A program made the translations under genes and the position numbers. A stretch of 47,962 bases of DNA from Ignavibacteriota bacterium (GTDB lineage Bacteria > Bacteroidota > Ignavibacteria > UBA10030): positions 1 through 47,962 of the forward strand of contig PMZI01000039.1 of assembly GCA_003170475.1 (NCBI GenBank), written 5' to 3'. Each line of letters starts with the position of its first letter. Within the stretch, counting starts at the first letter, position 1. A model generated the notes under the pieces. The model did not search any database. It was given only the letters and a program-made list of their open reading frames with translations, and was not told the DNA's origin. Shown here in pieces: positions 4,885 through 7,201 of the stretch.

Positions 4885-5224
4885 GGTGATATGGCTGCAA
4901 TGAACGGATTGATTACTGTCAGAAAGTAGGCAATGAAGGGGCAATGTGCAAGTCTGCAAGCGGCCTGTTCCATCCCTCTGCTCCAAAAAAACACCTCACC
5001 TGCAGAGATTCCTAGAATGTTGAGTGAATCCACATCGGAACTTCTGAACTCTAGCATTGTTCTACAGGTACCCGGGGGGGCGAAGAGTCCTGATGCGTTC
5101 TCCACGGAGCACAAATATATTTTCCACGAAGTCCAAGGCGCGGTTCGACGCTGAGACAGCAGAGTTGGCACGCACTCCGTTCGGTCCGCATTGCGATAAT
5201 ATCCATCACACACAGGGGGCATCG
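4885..5224. other. Divergent intergenic region
   Basis: 340 bp between the leftward kinase and the rightward lipoprotein. It must hold promoters for both. A GATAATAT sequence near 5195 is -10-like but has no good -35 partner. No clear operator or hairpin was found. Confidence 0.4.
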
Positions 5225-7201
5225 TTGAATTCCATCGCTCTTCGTACATCTCTCGCTTTGGCATTGATTCTCCTCACGCTTTCGAGTTGCGCGAAGAAGG
5301 CGGACACAGTCGCAGGTCCATCCGATACTACACCTAATGCTCCCGGTACGCCAGTAACGGTGGAGCGTCGAACTCAGATATTGGACACGCTCTCGGCACT
5401 CGACAATTCGTTGTCGGGTCTTGATCCGAATACGGCGAACCAAAAGCTCCTGAATCTGCTTCGGTCGATGCCCGAAATTGCTAAGGCCGGGATATCGCCT
5501 GGCGGAGCCGTATGGGCAACATTTACTGATCGAAGGGTATTCATCAAGACCTCTTCCTTTGAAAATACAACATTAATTCCAAACGCATTGTCCATTGCAC
5601 AGGCTCAAACGTCGACATCATTGAGAAAAGTCACGGACAATCTTCCCACAACGAAAACAGCTACTGTCCTGAACGCCCTCGGAACTGCATTCGAGAAGTC
5701 CGATGCCGGGTACTATGGAGCCGAACAAACCCGAAAGGACATCGGTGATTTCCTCACGAGCGCTGGATACTCGGTGCGGCCGGGCAATGATGCATCAGTC
5801 AACGGATTGAAACAAGTGAACGGGGACGACGCCGTGTTCCACATGACAGCACACGGTGAAGAGGTTACGGTACTCTTCAATGACAAAGACAGCGTTCGAT
5901 ATTATTGCATTTGGACATCCGATCAGCGATCTCCTGAACTCGATGCGAAGTTCCAACCTGAGTTCGACGCTGAGGAATTGTGCTATCTGAAAGCTCCGAA
6001 CACCGCAAGTCTCTTCGGGGTAAAAGATGAGGTGCATTATGCAATCACTCCCAATTTCGTTCTGAATCACATGCACTTTGGGCTCAACAGTTTGGTGTAC
6101 ATCACCGCCTGTTTTAGCGGGTCACCCGAATCAAATCTAATGGTTGCCGCTTTTGGAAGCAGGGGTGCTTCTGTGTATGCAGGTTGGTCAACGTACGTTC
6201 AAGGTCAGGGTGCGTTCTATGCGGCACGCTTCTTCTTTGACCGCGCCTTGGGCATGAACAGGGTGAAACCCACCCCTAATCCCCCTCAACGACCGTTTGA
6301 ATACTACCTCGTTCATGAGGACATGCAGTACCGGGGGATTGACAAGACCACGGCAGTCGTGAAGGGGAAAACGTATTCGGCCACTCTCTCTTTCAATCAG
6401 ATGAAGGACGATTTCGCGATATTCCTCCCGACCATTCAACTCAGCGCCATCACGGACCAAACGAAACTCTATATCGATGGGACCTTTGGAAAGATCCCCG
6501 GGGTCGTCAAGTTCAACGGCAGTCCCCTCACCATCGATCCATGGAAAAGTTCAACGTTATCGATGGTTAGCCCTCCAACGGGTGGATTGCTCTGGGTCGA
6601 AGTCAACGGACTGGCGAGCAACAAGATACCACTTACCGAGTGGGATGGCACCATCACCTATACGTACACGGGTAGAGGAACCCTGGAGCAAACGGTGACG
6701 CTGAATCTGGTCTTTATTGCCGATGTGCATCGCTATCGATCCGTCTCCGGAGCAGATCAGATTTGGGCAGACAATGATTACTGGGGCGGCCTCCGAGGGA
6801 TCTTCGTCTCTCCGAAATCGTCGGGATCGTATGTCGCCTCTGGAGAATACCGGGACCCGACGACACACGAGGTGCTGGAATCGTGGACCGGCGGAGGGAG
6901 CATACCGGCCGGGATATTTCCATCATTGACCACGGGGTTCTCCGTGCTGGGAATGGTCGACAGTGTGGGAAGTGAGGCACAGCTCATCTTGTCGCTCAGT
7001 GCACCTTACAGTCTCTTTACCAAGCAGAGCGGAGCCCAGCCCGCCACAATAAACTTGGGTGGACTAGGTAGCATCGATGTGCCCGTCAAACCCGGATTTG
7101 TTTTGCCCCCCTGGAGTGATTCGTCCGGAACGGCAAAGCTCACATGGTCGGGATCAACTCCAGACCCGAGGTACGTTCAAAAACCAACCGATCAACGATA
7201 G
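5225..7201 (+). CDS. Large lipoprotein with a caspase-like His/Cys arrangement
   Basis: 658 residues, starting at a TTG (5225) preceded by AGGGGG with 5-base spacing. A lipoprotein signal follows at once (LALALILLTLSSC, lipobox cysteine about residue 20), so the protein is probably anchored to a membrane. Two motifs stand out. One is a hydrophobic strand ending in H210-G (FHMTAHGEE); the other is a strand ending in C296 (VYITACFSGS), 86 residues later. A strand-HG followed by a strand-C is how clan CD peptidases (caspases, metacaspases, gingipains) place their catalytic dyad. The C-terminal half is beta-rich and probably carries a binding domain. I do not recognise the family overall; the peptidase idea is inference from two motifs. 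Confidence 0.6.
   Translation: MNSIALRTSLALALILLTLSSCAKKADTVAGPSDTTPNAPGTPVTVERRTQILDTLSALDNSLSGLDPNTANQKLLNLLRSMPEIAKAGISPGGAVWATFTDRRVFIKTSSFENTTLIPNALSIAQAQTSTSLRKVTDNLPTTKTATVLNALGTAFEKSDAGYYGAEQTRKDIGDFLTSAGYSVRPGNDASVNGLKQVNGDDAVFHMTAHGEEVTVLFNDKDSVRYYCIWTSDQRSPELDAKFQPEFDAEELCYLKAPNTASLFGVKDEVHYAITPNFVLNHMHFGLNSLVYITACFSGSPESNLMVAAFGSRGASVYAGWSTYVQGQGAFYAARFFFDRALGMNRVKPTPNPPQRPFEYYLVHEDMQYRGIDKTTAVVKGKTYSATLSFNQMKDDFAIFLPTIQLSAITDQTKLYIDGTFGKIPGVVKFNGSPLTIDPWKSSTLSMVSPPTGGLLWVEVNGLASNKIPLTEWDGTITYTYTGRGTLEQTVTLNLVFIADVHRYRSVSGADQIWADNDYWGGLRGIFVSPKSSGSYVASGEYRDPTTHEVLESWTGGGSIPAGIFPSLTTGFSVLGMVDSVGSEAQLILSLSAPYSLFTKQSGAQPATINLGGLGSIDVPVKPGFVLPPWSDSSGTAKLTWSGSTPDPRYVQKPTDQR

Follow-up and report, generated by a model that had tools for sequence, protein, structure and literature searches.

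The window analysed here, a stretch of 47,962 nucleotides from a draft genome of an Ignavibacteriota bacterium, encodes a 658-residue lipoprotein (positions 5225-7201, + strand) that is probably a lipid-anchored, extracytoplasmic cysteine endopeptidase of the caspase/haemoglobinase fold, belonging to a clan CD family for which neither Pfam nor NCBIfam holds a model. This reading builds on features that are established by computation: the signal sequence and its cysteine, the predicted fold, the position of the dyad, its conservation, and the exchange of domains among relatives.

Gene layout and lipid anchor

The gene lies inside an open frame that spans 5057-7201 on the + strand. Within this frame the TTG at 5225 is the preferred start and appears to be the best placed, with a putative Shine-Dalgarno-like AGGGGG (5214-5219, +), recognized by reading the sequence, ending 5 nt before it; the product given by the open frame and its translation from this TTG is the 658-residue lipoprotein. 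A promoter scan found 2 candidates against 2.0 expected, and a terminator scan 5 against 2.6 expected.

Read by eye, the N-terminus consists of a hydrophobic stretch followed by LSSC22, that is, a lipoprotein signal (residues 1-21) and a lipid-attachment cysteine (together 5225-5290, +), and the protein has the signal peptide and lipobox cysteine of a bacterial lipoprotein. Cys22 is kept in all four rows of alignment A4, and a cysteine follows the hydrophobic stretch in all 26 members of the family whose N-terminus is whole (by eye). Surface-exposed lipoproteins of Bacteroidetes carry an acidic export signal after the cysteine, of the C-X-K-(D/E)2 or S(D/E)n type, according to PMC5080379. This signal is absent from the window protein, which reads C-A-K-K-A-D, although the signal was defined in other Bacteroidetes and may not hold in this class; a sequence like it is approached in 11 of 26 relatives (by eye), for example in L008 (CKKDD) and L083 (CSDD). 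The window protein would presumably reside on the outer membrane.

Downstream of the anchor is an N-terminal alpha2-beta3 module (residues about 43-110; 5351-5554, +) that is common to other architectures, as judged from the secondary structure of the model and from hhalign coverage with relatives of types 2 and 3, described below. It is followed by the caspase/haemoglobinase-fold domain (residues 139-400; 5639-6424, +), an IPT/TIG-like domain (residues about 399-473; 6419-6643, +), and a C-terminal beta-rich region (residues 474-658; 6644-7198, +).

Predicted fold of the central domain

We modelled residues 139-400 alone with AlphaFold2, using four sequences. The resulting domain model has a pLDDT of 70.8 and a pTM of 0.77, with five versions spanning pLDDT 70.8 to 51.5 and a mean of 61 in the block that holds H210. 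A full-length model, also made from four sequences, is poor (pLDDT 52.1, pTM 0.45); its sole Foldseek match at E<=1e-3 is the amylase 1qho (TM 0.11), and in its VIA list, which Craspase heads at Z 8.0, flavodoxin-like and other rows are mixed in. Because the full-length model is weak and its VIA list mixed, we place the weight on the domain model.

Compared with the PDB by Foldseek, the domain model yields 8 matches at E<=1e-3 (best 1.4e-5), seven of which are titled Craspase or TPR-CHAT, the eighth being 7x8a, an entry of similar length titled 'a bacterial protein complex'. Below these come DdvA, a metacaspase, caspases and separase, together with the unrelated receptors 7k15 and 5v56 (ranks 15 and 28) and flavodoxins. 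Among the matches listed, no TM-score by query length exceeds 0.46, which is low, and the rmsd is mostly >5 Å. In VIA, where a model that lacks any clear match usually scores Z 7 to 8, 48 of the best 50 entries listed are by their titles caspases, metacaspases, separases, gingipains or CHAT/Csx29 proteins; the other two are DdvA, and no flavodoxin is among these 50. The Z values listed span 12.6 to 9.7: DdvA (8rw5) scores 12.6 with 173 residues aligned at an rmsd of 3.2 Å, SAVED-CHAT 12.3, Craspase 12.1, RgpB 11.2, separase 10.2, metacaspase 10.1, and caspase-3 and -7 about 10. Rows within Z 1 of one another count as ties, so the ranking singles out no one family. Strands and helices of the domain model follow one another in what can be read as the caspase order, with extra elements, and by the 8 Foldseek matches and the 48 of 50 listed VIA entries, at TM-scores of at most 0.46, the predicted model contains the core sheet and helices of clan CD. 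These comparisons support the view that the modelled domain resembles the caspase/haemoglobinase fold.

Relatives and their four architectures

In its own 4.08 Mb draft genome the window protein is the sole match, and searches with this single protein found no relative in the named genomes; none was found in viral contigs either. A profile of three members of what we call type 1, the architecture of the window protein, matches 8 of 98 genomes of the same order, its own included, one of which (G054) later turned out to be of a different type. Four of 395 genomes drawn from the phylum match this profile; three were known already, and the fourth, G296, is weak and matches in the TIG-like part only. 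With six members, the type 1 profile matches 35 of 391 genomes of the class, some in the protease region (in frames of ~700 residues) and others in the TIG-like part only. A relative in a Chthonomonadales metagenome-assembled genome (MAG) is 27% identical in a full-length alignment. This relative (L020:1565-3676) comes from another phylum and carries a twin-arginine-like lipoprotein signal; the family may therefore reach beyond its own phylum, though horizontal transfer or misbinning could account for this copy.

Three further architectures share the protease. Type 2 proteins are lipoproteins that combine the N-terminal module with a C-terminal choice-of-anchor L domain, which the NCBIfam model recognizes over its cut-off in all four sequences scanned (types were assigned by homology, and NCBIfam was run on 4 of the 18 type 2 sequences). 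A type 2 profile matches 74 of 391 genomes of the class, many in the N-terminal lipoprotein part only, and led to types 3 and 4. Type 3 ends in a FISUMP domain, with PF09603 above its cut-off in all five proteins scanned. Type 4 (L106 and L012) joins the protease core to a C-terminal region that looks, by eye, like DUF2135; in Pfam, L106 falls below the DUF2135 cut-off (E 0.02) and L012 is unmatched. The FISUMP proteins L101, L102, L104, L108 and L109 each have, upstream of FISUMP, a caspase-like domain that annotation has missed; it contains THG and a conserved cysteine. On G615:C19 and G487:C167 there is a further match no more than about 2 kb away.

Profile comparison links these types: type 1 matches type 2 at 98.2%, type 4 at 94.3% and type 3 at 76.5%; type 2 matches type 3 at 99.9% and type 4 at 98.0%; and the match between types 3 and 4 is weak (27.4%). 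Six reversed controls of these between-type comparisons give at most 0.2%. The hhalign alignments of type 1 with types 2 and 3 reach into the N-terminal module. In a tree, types 1, 3 and 4 each fall on one side of a branch, and type 2 takes two changes.

For the tail of the window protein, the profile of alignment A3 matches PDB entry 1qho with an E of 4.6e-5, and in VIA the full-length model aligns with 1qho over 73 residues (Z 6.4, rmsd 2.8); the part of 1qho that is matched is presumably its TIG-type domain. Through 1qho, then, the region has both a sequence-profile and a fold likeness to IPT/TIG domains, while PDB entries titled IPT/TIG match at E 0.16 or worse. At the Pfam TIG cut-off the window protein is unmatched, and its relative L009 reaches 15.1 bits of the 20.9 needed. 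The strands of the C-terminal region at residues 474-658 lie in the low-confidence part of the full-length model. A beta-rich C-terminal half had been proposed earlier; what we find there is an IPT/TIG-like domain followed by more predicted strands.

Position and conservation of the dyad

In clan CD enzymes, strands beta3 and beta4 carry the catalytic His and Cys at their C-terminal ends (PMC4357240). In the domain model, H210 (with Gly211 at 5852-5857, +) is just past strand 204-208 and C296 (6110-6112, +) just past strand 290-294, strands that we name beta3 and beta4; these positions match the clan CD placement and make the two residues the predicted catalytic His and nucleophile. They are 86 residues apart, with a hairpin-and-helix insert between them, a long spacing compared with the 42 of Craspase, whose dyad is H585/C627 (PMC9729208). 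Clan CD enzymes also have a glycine beside the catalytic His and an aromatic residue on loop L5 (PMC4357240, section 17). Glycine is found at position 211 in all 32 domains that we compared, and residue 321 is aromatic in every one of them (9 W, 21 Y, 2 F). In the window protein this residue is Trp321 (6185-6187, +), which from its place after strand beta5 of the model is likely to be the equivalent of the L5 aromatic.

These 32 domains (7 of type 1, 18 of type 2, 5 of type 3 and 2 of type 4) were drawn, after removal of duplicates, from nine families of the class (30 genomes) plus a single Armatimonadota MAG; G083 contributes two copies. Left aside were the split gene of G055, the copy of G046 that has no protease part, the fragments G083:C400 and G514:C186, weak matches, and matches that covered no more than the TIG-like, N-terminal or choice-of-anchor parts. 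Across the four architectures, 32/32 identity is confined to the columns of H210, G211 and C296; because the domains were cropped around a hand-chosen HG, the alignment of the H and G columns depends in part on that choice, and the C column is free of this. In alignment A3, H210, G211, A295 and C296 are invariant in all six members. Since the same residues recur in 6 of 6 homologues and 32 of 32 domains, the H-G / C pair is more than chance.

The initial annotation had drawn attention to H210 in FHMTAHGEE and C296 in VYITACFSGS, 86 residues apart, and to the clan CD-type order and context of this H-G / C pair. The translation agrees exactly with the former; the predicted fold, the placement of the dyad and its invariance agree with the latter. 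Two of the checks that it proposed came out in its favour: structure prediction of the domain gave a caspase/haemoglobinase-like fold by AlphaFold2, Foldseek and VIA, and H210 and C296 are retained throughout, in all 6 rows of A3, all 4 of A4 and every one of the 32 domains.

Relation to known peptidase families

Searches of Pfam, NCBIfam and PDB sequences named no family for the domain, and PADLOC returned nothing for the 6 proteins scanned. A Pfam match to LMP (E 0.1) and a match to PDB entry 5xs8 (E 1.1) were dismissed as noise. None of the clan CD models of Pfam, including C11, C14, C25 and CHAT, is matched by the window protein. For CHAT (PF12770, cut-off 24 bits) there is no match in the window protein or in the other type 1 proteins scanned, and 2 of 7 type 2 relatives give weak matches, the best at 15.4 bits. 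Peptidase C25 (PF01364) is likewise unmatched and at noise in hhalign, with a similar fold (RgpB, Z 11.2), and Peptidase C14 (PF00656) is unmatched, again with a similar fold (caspases, Z about 10). Families C11, C13, C50 and C80 have no Pfam match; separase (C50) reaches a VIA Z of 10.2, and C11, C13 and C80 are not among the 50 VIA matches listed, an absence that speaks against none of them.

We also compared a pooled profile of types 1 and 2 (15 rows) by hhalign with clan CD sequences of related genomes. Against CHAT it scores 19.8% (P 0.0012), with H, C and a GA....GW stretch all in register; against C14 it scores 18.6% (P 0.0013), with only the His in register; against a second CHAT group it scores 1.6%, and against C25 0.1%, which is noise level. 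Eight one-sided reversed controls of the pooled comparison give P 0.13 or worse. With single-type profiles, CHAT scores 7.2% for type 1 and 1.2% for type 2, and one reversed control is higher than the latter (2.0%, P 0.024). In the C14 set, L076, a misread row, was excluded from the pooled comparison, and L071, which has an internal stop, from both the pooled and the single-type comparisons. The comparisons of comb_rev with CHATlong_rev (24.7%) and with C14_rev (9.9%) have both sides mirrored and are not controls.

No clan CD profile matches the window protein and the CHAT/C14 profile comparison is only weakly positive, so the earlier statement that the rest of the protein matches no recognized family was right. 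Given these weak profile links to CHAT, C14 and C25, we call the window protein a separate clan CD family; its nearest known family would be CHAT, mainly by the modelled fold. The literature covered, mainly titles and the openings of abstracts with few subscription papers, yielded no description of lipid-anchored caspase-like proteins of Ignavibacteria.

The genome of the window protein also contains a single match each to CHAT, C25 and C14 (C51:9499-10269, C48:54559-55656 and C49:11520-12158). Eleven of the 14 CHAT stretches of one group (L045-L058) are without any HG, and these eleven may be inactive, to judge by their sequences.

Genomic context

In the window, the neighbours of the gene are histidine kinase/response regulator and GtrA/mannosyltransferase genes. 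The neighbours of L018 are FtsH- and TilS-like genes, that of L019 is a T9SS-sorted protein, and those of L020 are an endonuclease/phosphatase-like gene and a transporter (all by eye). No common neighbour is obvious across these four neighbourhoods and, since they differ, they suggest no partner.

In two genera, a relative has on its upstream side a gene of the same strand (L003:349-1410 / L019:4846-5907, and L004:103-732) with a T9SS-type sorting sequence, as read by eye, at its end. In G055 (L004/L014, G055:C156:5028-6549) a frame break splits the gene between a His half (THGGKG) and a Cys half (LDGCGSF), which could be a pseudogene or a sequencing error. In G046 (L011/L015, G046:C1:204241-204839) a gene remnant is left in which the N- and C-terminal parts abut and the protease part is gone, and the copy in G041, of the same genus, is intact. 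The gene therefore seems to be dispensable: its presence is patchy (8 of 98 genomes of the order), it is split in G055, and G046 has lost the protease part.

Proposed role and alternatives

We propose that the window protein is exported, lipidated at Cys22 and then placed on the outer membrane. There, His210 at the end of beta3 and Cys296 at that of beta4 would act as the catalytic dyad, with the His activating the Cys and the Cys attacking the peptide bond. Substrate choice would lie mainly with the P1 pocket, formed by helix alpha1 together with the two loops that follow beta4 and beta5, the second of which bears Trp321. The IPT/TIG-like and C-terminal beta domains, in an adhesion or docking role, may keep the protease near its substrate or a partner at the envelope; relatives have choice-of-anchor L, FISUMP or DUF2135-like tails in their place and retain the N-terminal module and the protease. 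The job of the protein would be the processing or degrading of extracellular proteins.

Several other readings have to be weighed against this one. The protein could belong to CHAT after all, as a divergent member relocated to the envelope, its protease being released by a binding event. Craspase chains top the Foldseek list, DdvA, SAVED-CHAT and Craspase lead the VIA list, the profile comparison with CHAT has H, C and GA....GW in register at a P that none of the eight reversed controls approaches, and two type 2 relatives give weak CHAT matches. However, the window protein itself has no such match and the best relative stays below the cut-off; C14 scores about as high as CHAT; type 2 alone falls under a reversed control; and the VIA rows within Z 1 are ties, with RgpB close behind. 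We consider this reading somewhat doubtful, though far from implausible. It is a good deal less likely that the protein is a transpeptidase, a sortase-type clan CD enzyme that joins surface proteins. PorU, and legumain acting as a ligase, are clan CD enzymes that join, and the clan CD-like fold and dyad would suit such a function, as would the upstream genes with T9SS-type sorting ends next to L003/L019 and L004; but neither the window nor L020 has a T9SS-sorted upstream neighbour, and the genome already has an enzyme of C25, the family of the known T9SS sortase.

The fold could also serve for binding at the cell surface without catalysis. Exchange of tail domains would suit a binding role too, but the sole columns invariant in 32 of 32 domains are H, G and C, as expected from selection on a catalytic dyad, and a pseudo-enzyme seems to us improbable. 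That the H-G / C pair is a coincidence in an unrelated alpha/beta (flavodoxin-like) domain is very improbable: flavodoxin-like rows occur in the VIA list of the weak full-length model and low in the Foldseek list of the domain model, which also has the two receptor entries at ranks 15 and 28, but the VIA matches listed for the domain model include no flavodoxin, and the pair is invariant.

Discussion

The best-known caspase-fold proteases work inside cells, in apoptosis and in defence (CRISPR among others), or are secreted, as gingipains and clostripains are. The window protein is close to TPR-CHAT/Csx29 (Craspase) and SAVED-CHAT, which are its best Foldseek matches, score VIA Z 12.3-9.8, and share the His-then-Cys dyad and a GA...W-like stretch past the Cys strand. 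Those proteases, however, are intracellular and work with CRISPR or SAVED partners, whereas the window protein is a lipoprotein with IPT/TIG-like and beta domains, a longer H-to-C insert, and no TPR, SAVED or CHAT match in Pfam. DdvA (8rw5, 8rot), a membrane protein by its title, heads the VIA list (Z 12.6 with 173 residues aligned, in the stretch 797-991 of DdvA), but it is a transmembrane anti-sigma factor, that is, a regulator. Gingipain R, of family C25, is close in fold (4ief, Z 11.2) but the window protein has no C25 match and hhalign is at noise. Gingipains are secreted clan CD enzymes of Bacteroidota that travel as T9SS cargo and are not known as lipoproteins.

Two further groups are comparable. 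Fragipain of Bacteroides, a clostripain-related (C11) cysteine protease with an essential His-Cys dyad (H135/C180), processes exported proteins, as described in PMC8406203; its dyad is of the same type, but the window protein has no C11 match. Among prokaryotic metacaspases, 30 of 671 were assigned to an extracellular category (PMC3501461). Metacaspases or C14 proteins with N-terminal membrane segments share the caspase fold with the window protein, but it has no C14 match and only the His is in register.

Taken together, these results support the window protein as a caspase-fold peptidase candidate from an uncatalogued lipid-anchored family with exchangeable surface domains, and the initial annotation was right in substance. 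Its description of the enzyme as 'unusual' has to be tempered, as other secreted clan CD proteases, gingipains for example, occur in Bacteroidota. More tentatively, we think it possible that this is an undescribed clan CD peptidase family, present in at least nine families of one class, in which a lipid-anchored N-terminal module and a caspase-like protease are combined with swapped surface domains (IPT/TIG-like, choice-of-anchor L, FISUMP, DUF2135-like). Its members might be the surface processing proteases of Ignavibacteria-type Bacteroidota, a caspase-type counterpart of gingipains that has no need of type IX secretion.

A lipid-fixed caspase-fold family with interchangeable surface domains, missed by the profile libraries searched, would broaden the known roles of this fold at the envelope. 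In addition, annotators would gain a named domain for proteins that are now listed as hypothetical, FISUMP or choice-of-anchor L lipoproteins.
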